From an uncultured Bacteroidia bacterium (GTDB lineage Bacteria > Bacteroidota > Bacteroidia > Bacteroidales > Prolixibacteraceae), in the NCBI GenBank assembly GCA_903923905.1, contig CAIXZH010000034.1, forward strand, positions 1 to 53,265: a stretch of 53,265 nt of DNA, given 5' to 3'. Every line of letters starts with the position of its first letter. The stretch's first letter is position 1. Made by a program: the position numbers and the translations under genes. The notes beneath the pieces were generated by a model that worked only from the letters and a program-made list of their open reading frames with translations, ran no database searches and was not told the DNA's origin. Positions 777 through 45,957 of the stretch are shown here, one piece after another.

Positions 777-3221
777 TTAAAATCCTATACTGACACTTAA
801 AATAAAGTTAGTGCCAGCCTGTGGAAAATAGCCATCCATTTTATTTCTTTTCCCGTTGTATAAATAGGAATAAACCCAGGCATTACTTTCGTATTGCTCA
901 TTCAGAATATTATTAATCAGCAACTTAAGTTTTAGCTCCTGAAAGCGTTTTTGCTTCAGTTTATAGTCAAATCTTAGGTTGTTGATAAAATAGGGATTCA
1001 GTTTCCTGTCGTTACTTGCTGTATTGTCAATATACTGTTTTCCGACACAGTAAGATAGAATACTGATTTCCAGTCTGTTGTAAGGCCTGTAGGTAAGCAC
1101 ACTATTGGCTGTCAGTTGGGGAGAGAATGCAAGATCTGTTTTGCCGATTACGTTTGCTTTGGTTCCTCCATTATCCCAGTCTTCAACAAATTCGGTGAAA
1201 TTGTCAATCTTATTGCTACTGAGCGTGGCATTCACGTTCCAGTTTAGTTGCTTAAGAATCTTAACTCCTGCCATTATTTCGAGTCCGGTCCGATGACTCT
1301 TGACGGCGTTGGTCATAATTGCATTGCCAACATCATTGATCTGGCCGGTCAAAATCAATTGGTTGTTGTAATACATGTAATAATAATTGGCTCCCAGTAT
1401 TAATTGGGGAGACTTATATTTATATCCCAACTCGAAGTCATTCAATGTCTCGAAAGTTGGTTGCTTTCCGGTAGGATTGGCGTCAGTAAGATTATCATGG
1501 GTTGGCTCATGATTGCCATGGCTAAAACTGAAGTAGGCATCATGGTGAACTCCTGGTGAATAAAACAACCCAAATTTAGGGTTGAAGAAGGTATATACAT
1601 GGTTCTGGGTTATGTTCCGCAGGTTACCATCAATGCCATTAATCTCATAATTGATATACCGGTACTGCAAATCTGCCGACGCATTCAATTTATCTGAAAA
1701 TTGAACGTTATATCGGACATAAATATTGTTATCCTTTTTTGATCCTTTGCTTCGGTACCACTCATAATCTATATCTGCATTGCCAGCTACCTGCGCCCAG
1801 ATCACCCGTCCATAATGCTGGCCGTCATAACTGTTTGCACCACCTCCGACAGTCAGTGAATTTTTCCCTTTTTTATAATTCAGGGAAAATATCATTCCGT
1901 AAAACACATTATCGAGCCACTTACGGGTGATCATATCTGTTTTATCGACCGGAGTTCCATTGATTACCGGGTAAGGAAGCTGGTAGTTCGCATAATCCTG
2001 GCCGGTTACGTATTCCTCGTAATAACCACGGCCATAAACGCAGAATGCTGATGTATTGAGACTCAGGTATTGAGTGAATTGGTGAGAATACTGAAGTTGA
2101 TAATTGTCCTGCTGGTAATGATCCACCTGATTTTTATAGGTATACAGGTTATAGGTGCGGCTATTGGAATTAAGCATGTTTTGTTCCTGTGCCAAGGTAT
2201 ACAATCCATCTGTGTAATACTGTTCCATCCCGGTCAGATCATTGTTTAGTCTTACGGAGGGAACCCCGTTCCATGCCTGGTAAGTTTGTTCGAAGCCTGA
2301 AAAGGCAGTGATTTTAAGAATGGTATTGGGTGTGAAATATCCACCTGAAAGATAAAATGACTTCAGATCAGCAGAGGCCCGGTCAATAAATCCCAATGAG
2401 TTGATTTTCGAAAGTGAAACATCCATTGCAAATTTATCGTTGATCAGACCGGTCCCGACGGATACGTTATTGCGGTAAGTATCAAAAGATCCTGCAGATG
2501 AGTTGTAAATGGCATATGCTTTCGGATTTAATTTGCTGGTCTGGAAATCGATGGTTGCACCAAAGGCTGCAGCTCCATTGGTTGAATTTCCGACTCCCCG
2601 TTGTATCTGAATATTTTCTGTTGAGGCAGCCATATCAGGAATATCTACGAAATAGGTGCTCTGGGATTCTGCATCCGACATTGGTATTCCGTTAATGGTC
2701 ACATTGATTCCGGTAGGGTCTGTCCCCCTGATCCTGAAATTGGTATATCCCACACCGTTTCCGGCATCTGATGTTGCAACAAAAGATGGGGTATAATTCA
2801 GCATATAGGGAATATCCTGTCCAAAATTCGATGCCTTAATATCTTCTTTTCCGATATTGGTATAAGCCACCGGAGATTTTTCACCTGCTCTGGCAGCAGA
2901 TATCAGAACCTCTTCTGTCAATATGTTTGTGGGTTCCATTGCCACTTCCAGATTCAGAGAGCTATTCATTATTAGCTCTTTAGTGAAATTCTTGTATCCG
3001 ACAAAAGTAATTTGAACTGTGTATTTCCCATTTTTGAGGTTCATGAATTTAAATTCACCCGTTATTCCTGCGGTGGTTCTGTCAAAGGTATTTACGAGCA
3101 TTACATTAGCTCCACTCAATGCTTCACCATTCATATCTTTGACAATTCCGCTCAGCGATAATTGCCCAAAAACTACAACTGTGAATAACTGCAATGCCAA
3201 AAATAATCCGAATTGTTTCAT
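777..3221 (-). CDS. TonB-dependent outer-membrane receptor under TPP riboswitch control, probable thiamine transporter
   Basis: This 814-aa protein begins with a signal peptide (residues 1-19, ending VVVFGQ). A carboxypeptidase-like regulatory fold spans about 22-105, including LSGIVKDMNGEALSGANVML. A TonB plug covers about 110-225 (FRIRGTDPTGINVTINGIPM). A long beta-barrel follows and ends in a terminal Phe (LSVSIGF), the usual signal for outer-membrane insertion. The plug and barrel are the architecture of ligand-gated importers driven by TonB-ExbBD. The leader carries two TPP aptamers, so I infer that the substrate is thiamine or a thiamine precursor. TPP-controlled receptors of this kind are described in Bacteroidota as OMR1. 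No pnuT or thiamine pyrophosphokinase gene is adjacent, so the inner-membrane partner must lie elsewhere. The gene appears monocistronic. Confidence 0.9.
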   Translation of the reverse strand: MKQFGLFLALQLFTVVVFGQLSLSGIVKDMNGEALSGANVMLVNTFDRTTAGITGEFKFMNLKNGKYTVQITFVGYKNFTKELIMNSSLNLEVAMEPTNILTEEVLISAARAGEKSPVAYTNIGKEDIKASNFGQDIPYMLNYTPSFVATSDAGNGVGYTNFRIRGTDPTGINVTINGIPMSDAESQSTYFVDIPDMAASTENIQIQRGVGNSTNGAAAFGATIDFQTSKLNPKAYAIYNSSAGSFDTYRNNVSVGTGLINDKFAMDVSLSKINSLGFIDRASADLKSFYLSGGYFTPNTILKITAFSGFEQTYQAWNGVPSVRLNNDLTGMEQYYTDGLYTLAQEQNMLNSNSRTYNLYTYKNQVDHYQQDNYQLQYSHQFTQYLSLNTSAFCVYGRGYYEEYVTGQDYANYQLPYPVINGTPVDKTDMITRKWLDNVFYGMIFSLNYKKGKNSLTVGGGANSYDGQHYGRVIWAQVAGNADIDYEWYRSKGSKKDNNIYVRYNVQFSDKLNASADLQYRYINYEINGIDGNLRNITQNHVYTFFNPKFGLFYSPGVHHDAYFSFSHGNHEPTHDNLTDANPTGKQPTFETLNDFELGYKYKSPQLILGANYYYMYYNNQLILTGQINDVGNAIMTNAVKSHRTGLEIMAGVKILKQLNWNVNATLSSNKIDNFTEFVEDWDNGGTKANVIGKTDLAFSPQLTANSVLTYRPYNRLEISILSYCVGKQYIDNTASNDRKLNPYFINNLRFDYKLKQKRFQELKLKLLINNILNEQYESNAWVYSYLYNGKRNKMDGYFPQAGTNFILSVSIGF

Positions 3222-3275
3222 CTTTTAAAACTTAATATGGTTAAAATCTTACCAATGAGGAGGTGATTATCCATT

Positions 3276-3355
3276 CGCCATCCCTACACCGGCATTACCC
3301 GGATCAGGTTCGGTGGGTATGATCTCAGCCTGTAATTTTCAGGCACCCCATTGCG
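3276..3355 (-). promoter_or_regulatory. TPP riboswitch, proximal copy
   Basis: Read on the minus strand this contains the THI-box hallmarks in order: GGGGTGCC, GGCTGAGATCATACCC, GAACCTGATCCGGGTAATGCC and GTAGGGA. A closing P1 helix can form between CGCAAT (3350-3355) and ATGGCG (3276-3281), with one A.G mismatch. All canonical ligand-contact segments are present. It ends 54 bases before the receptor ATG. The intervening CCTCATTG (3253-3260) can pair with CAATGGGG (3346-3353) of the aptamer's 5' side, which would give a P1-competing alternative fold. Confidence 0.95.
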
Positions 3356-3450
3356 TAATTAAATCTAAAGAACCTGAAAATACCGGAATGATAAATTCAA
3401 GCACTTGTTGTAAATATTAAAAGAAACCTTAAAACGGATTGATTTGTCAT

Positions 3451-16445: not shown

Positions 16446-16751
16446 TCATTTCTTTTCAATAATGACGAAAATGTCTTCATTCTTTCGCTTCATCAGGAAC
16501 TGCTCTCTTGCAAATTTTTCAAGATTTTTTGAGCTGGTCTGCAGCTCTTTTAACCGCTCACTGTCAGTCAGAATCTTCTCTTTATAGTAATTACTCTCGA
16601 TTTTGTACTTCTTCAGTTTGTTCAGATTTTGACGCAAAAACAAGATGTTATGATCATCCAGAAAGATCATCCAAACACTGAAAATCAGGAACACAACCAG
16701 GTATTTATTCCTGATGGTCCTGAAAAACGCTTTAAGGATAATCGGTTTCAT
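16446..16751 (-). CDS. FtsB/DivIC-like septum formation initiator protein
   Basis: The 101-aa bitopic protein has a short cytoplasmic N-terminus and one membrane helix (YLVVFLIFSVWMIFL, about 16-30). An extracytoplasmic leucine-rich coiled coil follows (LRQNLNKLKKYKIESNYYKEKI, about 38-60), then the family's terminal FAREQFLMKRKNEDIFVI. FtsB/DivIC pairs with FtsL and FtsQ to activate septal peptidoglycan synthesis. I chose the ATG at 16751 rather than an upstream start at 16907, because the added 52 residues look non-coding and would put a second hydrophobic stretch before the real one. Confidence 0.85.
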   Translation of the reverse strand: MKPIILKAFFRTIRNKYLVVFLIFSVWMIFLDDHNILFLRQNLNKLKKYKIESNYYKEKILTDSERLKELQTSSKNLEKFAREQFLMKRKNEDIFVIIEKK

Positions 16752-17140
16752 CGTAAAATTAAATATAATTAAAATAACTGTCTGATGCTTAATATCCTGT
16801 GCTACTGACCTGCAAAAAGCTATTTCGATACAAATTAACTGAATCCTATTCAGATTAAAAAGCCGGTAGGTTATAAAGTTTGAATGTAGATCCAAATAGA
16901 GGGGCATGGAAATTTATCCATTCTCAAATAGTGTATCTAAGGATTGCCGGCAGCTTGCTTCCTGGTGCTGGCGGAACTTCCTGACAGGAATTGTTGGTCC
17001 GAGGTATAAATAGGATCGGCTGAAAAACTAGCAACTAATTGTTATTTAAATCTATATAAATTAATTTAATCGTTGAAGTACAAAGAAAATTGAATTATAA
17101 ATGCAAAATCCGTCCATCCAAATATCTCCAACGTTAGTAA
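16752..17140. other. Gene-free stretch upstream of the FtsB-like gene
   Basis: These 389 bases contain no convincing gene. The only structures I see are a 13-base palindrome, TTCCTGACAGGAA, at 16978-16990 and AT-rich sequence near 17035-17100. The FtsB-like promoter should lie here, but I cannot place it with confidence. Confidence 0.5.
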
Positions 17141-17369
17141 AAATCCGGAAAGGATTTAATGTAAATAACCCCCAGCGAAGTGAAACGAAACTGGGGGTTT
17201 AGGATCCAGTGAAAACTGGAACCCCGACAGGGTTCAATATTAACAATTTAACCTAACATTCAGCCCTATTCGGGGCTGCTGTTATATCGTTCATTCCCCT
17301 TGTTTCGGTGTAGAGACGTAAGATTTTACGTCTCTACACCGGGGGTTATTCATCCGTCGGCTGACGGAT
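17141..17369. repeat. Hairpin array, seven inverted repeats partly enclosed by a 10-bp terminal inverted pair
   Basis: Seven stem-loops follow one another. They are 17141-17157 (AAATCC/GGATTT), 17167-17199 (AACCCCCAG/CTGGGGGTT), and 17205-17220 (TCCAGT, GAAA tetraloop, ACTGGA). Next are 17219-17235 (GAACCC/GGGTTC), 17261-17278 (CAGCCC/GGGCTG), 17306-17341 (16-bp arms, described separately) and 17352-17369 (ATCCGTC/GACGGAT). AATAACCCCC at 17164-17173 is matched by its exact inverse GGGGGTTATT at 17341-17350, so part of the array is bounded like a small non-autonomous element. I see no target-site duplication. It lies between the divergent-oriented FtsB-like leader and the 3' end of pruA. Confidence 0.85.
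17306..17341. repeat. TGTAGAGACG-family palindrome, copy 1
   Basis: A perfect inverted repeat with 16-bp arms (CGGTGTAGAGACGTAA and its complement) and a 4-base GATT centre. The inner TGTAGAGACG arm is shared with palindromes near 42.5 kb and 45.9 kb. Confidence 0.9.
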
Positions 17370-17446
17370 AACCACTTCATAGTTTAAAATAGATTTTCAG
17401 CAGACTAAATATTAATTGTCAATTATCCACCTAGATCTGAGAATAA

Positions 17447-19084
17447 TCAATCGTTATCCGGAAGGAAATTGGGGTACATAAAATCGGTAGCCGGAACAAA
17501 TGTCTCTTTAATGGTGCGGATTGAAACCCAGCGAAGCATATTAAAGACTGAACCTGCCTTATCATTGGTTCCTGAGCCTCTGGCTCCCCCGAATGGTTGC
17601 TGTCCAACCACCGCTCCGGTTGGCTTGTCATTGATATAAAAATTACCGGCGGCATTGCTCAGCCGTTTGGTCATGTGTTCGATCGCATAACGGTTTTGTG
17701 AAAAGATCGCCCCTGTAAGCGCATACGCGGAGGTGTTGTCAACGAGGGTCAAAGTCTCCTCTATCTTTGCGTCATCATAAACAAAAATAGTGACAACCGG
17801 CCCAAATAGCTCCTCTTTCATCGTGATATAGTCCCCTTTTTTGGCAAGAATCACGGTTGGTTGAATAAAATATCCTTTTGATTTATCGCAATTTCCGCCA
17901 TAAATCACCTCTGCATCCTGATCCTCACGGGCACGGTCAATAAATCCCTTTAATTTGTCAAACGAAGCTTCGTCAATTACGGCATTGACAAAATTGGTGA
18001 AATCCTCCGGAGGTCCCATCTTCATCTTTTTCAACTGCGAAACAGCTTCCTGCCAGGTCTTCTTCCAGATCGAGGCAGGCACGTAAACCCTTGAAGCTGC
18101 AGAGCATTTCTGCCCCTGATATTCAAATGATCCGCGAACAATAGCAGTGGCCAATGCTTTTGAATCGGAGGTGGGGTCTGCAAAGATAAAATCTTTGCCA
18201 CCGGTTTCTCCGACAATTCGGGGATAGGATTTAAACCTGAAAATATTCTCTCCGATTGTCTTCCAGATATCCTGAAAAACACCTGTTGAACCTGTAAAAT
18301 GGATACCGGCAAAATCTGGATGGCTGAAGATTATCTTCCCTGCAGCCGGACCGGATACATAAACCAGATTGATCACGCCGTCAGGTAGTCCTGCCTCTTT
18401 TAAAATTTCCATGATCACTGCTGCAGAATAAACCGCTGTTTTTGATGGTTTCCATACGCAAACATTACCCATCATTACCGGAGCCACAGGCAGATTGCCT
18501 GCAATTGAGGTAAAGTTGAATGGGGTCAATGCGAAGACAAATCCCTCAAGCGGCCTAAATTCGTTGTAATTCCACATTCCCGGATTCGACTCAGGCTGCA
18601 TTTCGTAGATTTGAGTCATGCACTTTACTCCATATCGGTAAAAATCTGCCAATTCGCAGGCTGCATCAATCTCAGCCTGAAAGGCATTTTTTGATTGTCC
18701 CAGCATCGTAGCTGCATTTATTTTTGCCCGATACGGTCCGGCAAGCAAATCGGCTGCTTTTAAAAAGATAGCTGCCCTGTGTTGCCAGCCTAATTCGGAC
18801 CATGCTGTACGCGCCAGCAATGCCGCATCAATTGCCTGTTTAACATGTGATTCATCTCCCTGATAAAAGTAGCCAAGGAGATGATTGATATCGTGTGGCG
18901 GATGCATTTCGATTTTACGGGCACTTTTTACTTCCTTGCCTCCAATAAACATGGGAAGTTCAACAACTTTAGAGCGCATAACTGCAATCAAAGCTTTTAG
19001 CTCCTTCCGTTCGGGGGAACCCGGGCTGTAGCTCTTTACGGTTTCATTTTTGGTAACCGGTACATTGAAAAAACCTTTGGTCAT
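17447..19084 (-). CDS. pruA: 1-pyrroline-5-carboxylate (L-glutamate gamma-semialdehyde) dehydrogenase
   Basis: The enzyme oxidises glutamate semialdehyde to glutamate with NAD+, the second step of proline catabolism. The 545-aa chain is the long P5C dehydrogenase type common in Bacteroidota. Within the aldehyde dehydrogenase fold I see GFVFALTPFNFTSIAGNLP (181-199), the cofactor loop HFTGSTGVF near 272, Glu293 in VGETGGKDF, the catalytic Cys327 in EYQGQKCSAASRVY, and GGARGSGTNDKAG near the end. The first enzyme, proline dehydrogenase, is encoded separately at 29217-30128, so the pathway is not a PutA fusion here. Its upstream region contains ATCTGTTCT, similar to the candidate xylose operator word, possibly by chance. 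Confidence 0.96.
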   Translation of the reverse strand: MTKGFFNVPVTKNETVKSYSPGSPERKELKALIAVMRSKVVELPMFIGGKEVKSARKIEMHPPHDINHLLGYFYQGDESHVKQAIDAALLARTAWSELGWQHRAAIFLKAADLLAGPYRAKINAATMLGQSKNAFQAEIDAACELADFYRYGVKCMTQIYEMQPESNPGMWNYNEFRPLEGFVFALTPFNFTSIAGNLPVAPVMMGNVCVWKPSKTAVYSAAVIMEILKEAGLPDGVINLVYVSGPAAGKIIFSHPDFAGIHFTGSTGVFQDIWKTIGENIFRFKSYPRIVGETGGKDFIFADPTSDSKALATAIVRGSFEYQGQKCSAASRVYVPASIWKKTWQEAVSQLKKMKMGPPEDFTNFVNAVIDEASFDKLKGFIDRAREDQDAEVIYGGNCDKSKGYFIQPTVILAKKGDYITMKEELFGPVVTIFVYDDAKIEETLTLVDNTSAYALTGAIFSQNRYAIEHMTKRLSNAAGNFYINDKPTGAVVGQQPFGGARGSGTNDKAGSVFNMLRWVSIRTIKETFVPATDFMYPNFLPDND

Positions 19085-45873: not shown

Positions 45874-45957
45874 TGTAGGGACGTTGCATGGAAAATGTGT
45901 AGGGACGTTGCATGGAAAATGTGTAGAGACGTTGCATGCAACGTCTCTACACATTTT
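45874..45957. repeat. TGTAGAGACG-family repeat, copy 3: two 24-base units plus a perfect 42-bp palindrome
   Basis: Two identical 24-base units (TGTAGGGACGTTGCATGG + AAAATG; 45874-45897 and 45898-45921) run into a perfect palindrome of 42 bp (45916-45957) with core TGTAGAGACGTTGCA and its complement. The direct units carry GGGACG where the palindrome has AGAGACG. The block begins 3 bases after the ddl stop and can form a very long hairpin that may end ddl transcription. The 220 bases after it, up to dnaB, hold nothing I can name. Confidence 0.95.

Follow-up and report, generated by a model that had tools for sequence, protein, structure and literature searches.

Results

A Cluster of Hairpins Lies Within an IS5-Type MITE

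The locus lies in a window of 53,265 nucleotides (the whole stretch of DNA that was analyzed), between an aldehyde dehydrogenase gene that we take to be PruA-like and a short ORF that is presumably FtsB-like. The inverted repeats described by the original prediction, which was made from the letters alone, are present where it had placed them, as seen in the sequence and in an inverted-repeat list. There is an inverted pair (AATAACCCCC at 17164–17173 with GGGGGTTATT at 17341–17350), a 9-bp stem (17167–17175/17191–17199), a GAAA-loop stem (~17206–17219), and a perfect 16-bp stem (17306–17321/17326–17341), accompanied by smaller hairpins that can be read off the sequence at 17141–17157, 17219–17235, 17261–17278, and 17352–17369. 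The left arm can, as had been claimed, pair alternatively with the adjacent hairpin (17191–17199), or else with 17331–17350. When the folding energy of 17130–17380 was compared with that of 200 dinucleotide shuffles, z was −7.70 and −9.24 for the two strands, and none of the 200 shuffles was as low. The hairpins at 17141–17369 are real and not a product of chance.

As for a possible RNA, no Rfam family scores over its gathering threshold at 17141–17369, and a permissive search returned only weak matches, far below the thresholds. A simple scan of the plus strand found two terminator-like hairpins versus 0.6 expected. Elsewhere in the window, a TPP riboswitch (RF00059, 76 bits) lies on the minus strand at 3264–3360.

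Table 1. Features at the hairpin locus and in its immediate surroundings (window coordinates)
Feature	Position	Strand	Basis or remark
ORF of 153 aa (neighbor)	16446..16907	-	without Pfam match
Left target-site duplication, TAAATA (likely)	17007..17012	.	sequence; direct repeats among elements with the same TIRs
Nonautonomous IS5-type MITE carrying the hairpin core	17013..17405	+	393 bp; copies elsewhere, TIR common to a 1.66-kb IS
Left TIR	17013..17030	+	aligned copies, whose consensus is GGGTCTGCTGAAAAACTA
Y1-type end, left copy	17143..17237	-	R1 58.9 bits, E 3.7e-11
Hairpins of the left end	a' 17219-17235; b' 17167-17199; c' ~17141-17157		
Center of 21 nt	17238..17258	.	place of the Y1 gene in gene-bearing elements
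Y1-type end, right copy	17259..17384	+	R1 match 17259-17354, 22.6 bits, E 0.0033
Hairpins of the right end	a 17261-17278; b 17296-17299 with 17341-17345; c 17370-17384		b interrupted; c region placed by alignment with other copies
Dispersed GTAGAGACG palindrome inside hairpin b	17306..17341	.	the 16-bp stem of the original prediction
Extra small hairpin before c, ATCCGTC..GACGGAT	17352..17369	.	similar sequence in two copies (L010, L013)
Right TIR	17390..17405	-	aligned copies; 2 bases shorter than in other copies
Right target-site duplication, TAAATA (likely)	17406..17411	.	sequence
Aldehyde dehydrogenase gene (neighbor)	17447..19084	-	PF00171

DNA searches with 17100–17420 as the query found copies at five further places in the same genome, with 68 to 81% identity. 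One of these matches nearly the whole query (C115, 73%), and the others are partial (C21, 81%; C103, 72%; C71, 68%; C32, 71%), while many shorter matches in this genome correspond to one hairpin alone or to the GTAGAGACG palindrome. Matches at E ≤ 0.001 occur in 15 of 61 genomes, 12 of these 15 being from the same genus when the genome of the window is counted, and a query with the copy of a congener matches 14 of the 18 genus genomes at E ≤ 1e-8. The copies, when aligned together with their flanks, are alignable over approximately 17007–17412, identity stops at terminal inverted repeats (TIRs), and the flanks are unrelated. The search for copies that the original prediction had suggested thus succeeded, but not with the predicted borders. 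The mobile unit is 17013–17405, and the 10-bp pair that had been taken for its termini is part of two mirror-image ends in its interior.

Fuller copies have at their ends an inverted repeat with the consensus TAGGGTCTGCTGAAAAACTA. With up to two mismatches allowed, the TIR pattern occurs at 40 sites in the 18 genus genomes, versus none for a reversed-pattern control. Twelve elements have two repeats, and target duplications could be checked in 10 of them: 6 are bordered by direct repeats of 6–7 bp (TATTTA, TAAATA, or TAAAATA), 2 by TA alone, and 2 by none. In the window, TAAATA counts as a duplication if the right TIR is taken as 2 bases shorter, and on that basis a target duplication of the MITE is likely. 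Within 17013–17405, no ORF reaches 80 aa. Other short elements (87–454 bp; L064, L065, L067, L080, and L081) have TAGGGTCTGCTG repeats.

The element is absent from the corresponding place in relatives. Among 12 loci with the neighboring aldehyde dehydrogenase gene, one of which (L107) stops short of the site, none has a match to 17013–17405. In 7 of the 12, the genes beyond the site also show a long match, which indicates that gene order is kept, and the MITE is absent there.

The TIRs of the MITE are also those of an insertion sequence (IS). At three loci in congeners (L078, L079, and L083), they bound an IS of 1,656–1,659 bp with a transposase of 524–525 aa. This protein scores over the cutoff of NF033578, the NCBIfam model for IS5 (365.7–370.7 bits; cutoff 275), and contains DUF772 and DDE_Tnp_1_2 domains. 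Relatives of this transposase are found in 7 of the 18 genus genomes. None was detected at E ≤ 1e-20 in the draft assembly to which the window belongs, a matching transposase in the same genome being no strict requirement for an IS5-type MITE. Beyond the TIRs, MITE and IS show no significant likeness, since 25–800 of 1,000 shuffles scored as high in 15 comparisons, which leaves unsupported a descent of the left part of the MITE from the IS by internal deletion.

Together, the shared TIRs, the duplications, and the absence at the loci of relatives show that the outer layer is an inserted, nonautonomous IS5-type element, one of the possibilities that the original prediction had entertained. Judging from the TIRs, its most likely mover in trans would be the DDE transposase that the same-TIR IS encodes. 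As in other MITEs of IS5-type ISs, there are TIRs of ~20 bp in common with an autonomous IS, a short AT-rich target duplication, and no transposase gene. In contrast to them, the element has a foreign core of HUH type as its interior, and beyond the TIRs it bears no significant similarity to the IS.

A Group of Y1 Genes Is Flanked by Conserved, Covarying Ends

A search for Y1_Tnp (PF01797) in the 18 genus genomes, combined with a reading of the flanks, yielded a group of 148-aa Y1 genes (L139/L140/L141, L146, L161, L169, and L177), one of which (L161, on C93) is in the same genome as the window. Among the flanks listed, those of the group share an order of hairpins that runs outward as a, spacer, b, GGTTATT, and c.

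A scan of a collection of species genomes with five proteins of the group confirmed 438 loci. We used the top 80, which by their titles are mostly from Bacteroidota, with a few others. A loose pattern for the 3' flank selected 49 of the 80, and 31 of those entered a first alignment (A2). The remainder were omitted as too close to the genus of the window (L179–L182 and L208), as misparsed (L189, L198, L219, L226, and L233), or without a fixed rule (L191, L225, L241, L248, L249, L251, L252, and L258). A2 was abandoned because hairpin b was misaligned where its loops are long; removal of eight long-loop rows gave the alignment A3, with 23 rows of 3' flanks of Y1 genes. The three stems of A3 have standard pairs in 92.5% of cells versus 75.2 ± 1.1 in shuffled data, a percentage that is biased upward since the rows had been picked among flanks fitting the loose pattern. 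This bias bears less on the double changes and slid controls: 83 cells show a double change, versus 27.0 ± 4.0 in shuffled data and 5–14 with the partners slid by 1–3 columns. Conserved unpaired letters lie around GG(T/C)TATT, and no conserved GTAG is found in A3.

From A3 we built a covariance model (R1), which contains only DNA beside the Y1 (HUH) genes of other bacteria. All 57 loci outside A3, misses included, served as the test set. A correctly oriented end was found downstream (within 120 nt) in 48 of these 57 loci, upstream (within 260 nt) in 48, and on both sides in 41, versus wrong-strand matches in the same ranges in 8 and 7 loci, which occur because these regions hold arrays. In the 57 loci, none of 172 R1 matches falls inside the Y1 gene, and the downstream end, in the 48 loci that have one, starts no more than 31 nt from the last matched codon in 43. 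Matches on the two sides of a transposase gene, with opposite orientations, are what DNA ends would give, and they argue against a structured RNA.

Most loci of other Y1 classes that were searched with R1 are without such ends. In a first set of 10 loci with other Y1 classes (L138, L144, L160, L162–L166, L170, and L178), R1 matched L166 alone (18.8–29.5 bits). A further 21 Y1 loci, including L129–L131, where a motif scan found no motif, gave three with matches: L132 (34.7 bits, ~900 nt from the gene), L151, and L155 (both 21.0–25.6 bits). With so few matches in these loci, other Y1 classes were discarded as the source of the core. R1 has no matches in 12 aldehyde dehydrogenase loci or in seven IS loci (L078, L079, L083, L086, L087, L090, and L092).

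The MITE Core Looks Like a Y1 Element Without Its Gene

In the 53,265 bases of the window, searched on both strands, the only R1 matches below E 0.01 are two ends inside the MITE, which are divergent and 21 nt apart (Table 1). The right end scores low because its hairpin b is interrupted, and its E value in a whole-genome R1 search is 0.335. The GAAA-loop stem falls in the variable spacer that separates hairpins a' and b'. Judged by eye, without counting, it appears weaker in other copies. Both ends of the core are thus homologous to the flanks of Y1 genes, in inverted order and with stems that covary. This core looks like a Y1 element deprived of its gene, with a REPIN-like build, although by eye its hairpin sequences are not closely like those of the Y1 copy in the same genome. 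The next R1 match in the window (1515–1586, minus strand, 14.5 bits, E 0.2) is perhaps a decayed end.

Inside hairpin b lies a third layer, the GTAGAGACG palindrome. It is found at eight places in the genome versus zero for a control, and it is absent from the corresponding hairpin of the other aligned copies. The bases outside its constant arms are complementary, though different in sequence, in six of nine places examined, one of which has an imperfect arm. Palindromes of the form GTAGAGACG...CGTCTCTAC occur in the window at 45923–45950 and 17310–17337, with constant arms and variable, often complementary inner and outer bases. A link of this palindrome to Y1 genes was considered and rejected, since no GTAGAGACG arm is found in 30 Y1 loci. 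A composite of palindromic elements, another of the readings first offered, describes the locus well: mirrored Y1-type ends with a dispersed palindrome inside. Neither the lack of a second copy nor the lack of conserved stems, both named at the outset as arguments against a mobile element, is observed, since there are copies in the same genome and in congeners and the stems of related ends covary.

Y1-Type Ends Are Common in the Genus

Whole-genome counts of ends are lower bounds, as 150 candidates were scored per genome. In the genome of the window (150 of 1,936 candidates scored), there are at least 45 ends at E ≤ 1, versus a single Y1 gene of the group by motif and length. Six divergent gene-less pairs have a center of 20–21 nt (C16, C21, C34, which is the window, C71, C93:125466, and C115), and this includes some weak single members, namely, the right end in the window and one C21 end (E 0.016). 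Other divergent pairs have a center of 9–10 nt (C37 and C93:93282) or 105 nt (C54) or overlap (C63), and one pair encloses the Y1 gene (C93, L161; 549 nt). The remaining ends are convergent, tandem, or single, and some copies form tandem arrays. At E ≤ 0.001, ends are present in all 18 genus genomes, with a total of at least 535. The same plan, with a center of 19–21 nt and different hairpin sequences, is found in G006 (C102), G008 (C418), and G015 (C139).

Some cores are independent of the MITE described above. Those at C16 and C21 are without these TIRs (no TIR site at up to three mismatches). A core of this type also fills short, 247-bp elements in G003 whose terminal repeats are different, GAGTCCACTCCG(G/A)AAAGT (loci L289–L300; e.g., L290:613–859), both ends being found at four places. 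The GAGTCCACTCCG repeat occurs in 9 of the 18 genus genomes. There are thus two MITE-like families with such cores and with different terminal repeats, and an IS partner was identified for one of them. If the G003 elements are a second MITE family, cores would have been captured more than once.

The Y1 Group Compared with Known Systems

The gene-bearing form resembles IS200/IS605 elements in that it encodes a Y1 HUH transposase (PF01797) and has hairpins just outside the gene. NF033573 is over its cutoff for three of four group members tested, and the best solved-structure match is the ISHp608 transposase. To our knowledge, IS200/IS605 elements move by cut and paste of a single strand and leave no target duplication, their ends are not inverted repeats, and their gene-less derivatives are PATEs. 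The ends described here differ: they are inverted copies of each other, with conserved AATAACC/GGTTATT next to hairpin b.

As for the protein class, TnpA-Y1 subclass 1.2 is described with a Y---Q--HH signature together with DH[IV]H and WQ motifs (PMC6006769). All five group proteins carry the signature, as do other Y1 groups of the genus; two of the five have DHIH and the rest DHLH or DHMH, while one has W followed by Q and the rest A. Because the DH[IV]H and WQ fit is partial, membership in subclass 1.2 is likely rather than settled. The small size of the protein (148 aa) and its occurrence mainly in Bacteroidetes are, like the signature, shared with the subclass (PMC6006769). Its members are reported to have a low genomic copy number and to be close to IS200/IS605 transposases, but not to share IS properties, and in general to lack the typical IS200 structures at their termini (PMC6006769). 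In contrast, conserved, covarying ends flank the genes here (on both sides in the 41 of 57 held-out loci), a result that, for this Y1 group, disagrees with the published lack of terminal structures. Conserved, covarying ends of such genes seem to be new to the openly searchable literature (ISfinder lay outside the search). Subclass 2.6, which is reported to have atypical structures with copies elsewhere (PMC6006769), is a possible parallel to these ends.

The arrangement also recalls REP-RAYT systems. REPINs and BIMEs, as defined in PMC8049555 and PMC8266576, have inverted palindromic ends and a short center. Like them, the gene-less pairs have two inverted palindromic ends and a short center without a gene, they are dispersed and also form tandem arrays, and related ends flank a Y1 gene. 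However, each end has three hairpins instead of one REP, and there is no GTAG tag. Moreover, the Y1 protein has YxxNQxxHH and, unlike TnpA-REP, is not of RAYT type by its REP_Tyr_transpos score (19.6–28.4 bits in the four members tested; cutoff 80).

Discussion

An important implication of these findings is that the locus is very probably a nested nonautonomous element, an IS5-type MITE that carries the ends of a gene-less Y1 (HUH) element in a REPIN-like arrangement. The three hairpins of each end would form on single-stranded DNA, such as the lagging-strand template, where the cognate Y1 protein may bind and cut them. This protein would once have copied gene-less pairs of ends around genomes, and the core would then, or alongside, have been carried along inside the MITE, the whole of which a DDE transposase could move. 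An unrelated palindrome would have come to lie in one hairpin of the window copy as a third layer. Such movement by Y1 is our inference. On a wider scale, Y---Q--HH Y1 proteins could be the transposases of a REPIN-like three-hairpin system found across Bacteroidota, its pairs being amplified in trans and repeatedly captured by MITEs, so that two chemistries spread the same hairpins. We advance this generalization tentatively, as something that may equally turn out otherwise.

The order of events might have been the reverse. As has been suggested for RAYTs, the gene-less pairs would then be primary, and Y1 would be a host gene situated between two such pairs. This scenario partly coincides with the nested-element reading, from which it departs in what came first. 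It gains from ends being far more numerous than genes, both in the genus (at E ≤ 0.001, at least 535 ends across the 18 genomes) and in the genome of the window (at least 45 versus one), and from the low copy number reported for subclass 1.2 (PMC6006769). Nevertheless, the spacing of the downstream end, within 31 nt of the last codon in 43 of 48 loci, is tight enough for gene and ends to form a unit, and we consider a pairs-first origin rather unlikely.

It is improbable that the locus is no more than an IS5-type MITE with a palindromic interior of independent origin, resembling Y1 ends by chance or convergence. TIRs and target-site duplications would account for the outer mobility, but a model made from Y1 flanks alone matches both halves of the interior in the right order and orientation, and cores exist without these TIRs (C16 and C21) and within elements with other repeats (G003). 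Most improbable of all is a structured noncoding RNA or cis-regulatory element between both genes, with stems kept for RNA function: the strong folding predicted for both strands and the two plus-strand terminator-like hairpins would suit it, and compensatory changes would look alike for an RNA, but there is no Rfam family at threshold, the position is unconserved (the orthologous locus in relatives gives no match, and copies lie at unrelated loci), target duplications border elements with these TIRs, and the stems form mirror-image pairs around a transposase gene, which leaves this part of the original prediction without positive support.

With the nested element as the preferred reading, the Y1 group gains a concrete candidate for its DNA substrate, an end of 85 positions with covarying hairpins, and hairpin-rich DNA of a kind common in the genus (the ≥535 ends counted) is accounted for. 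It also provides a case in which a MITE of a DDE system carries an HUH-type core. Y1 genes of other groups (L132, L135, L143, and L166) lie amid hairpin repeats of their own, which are different, and such end structures may be more general.
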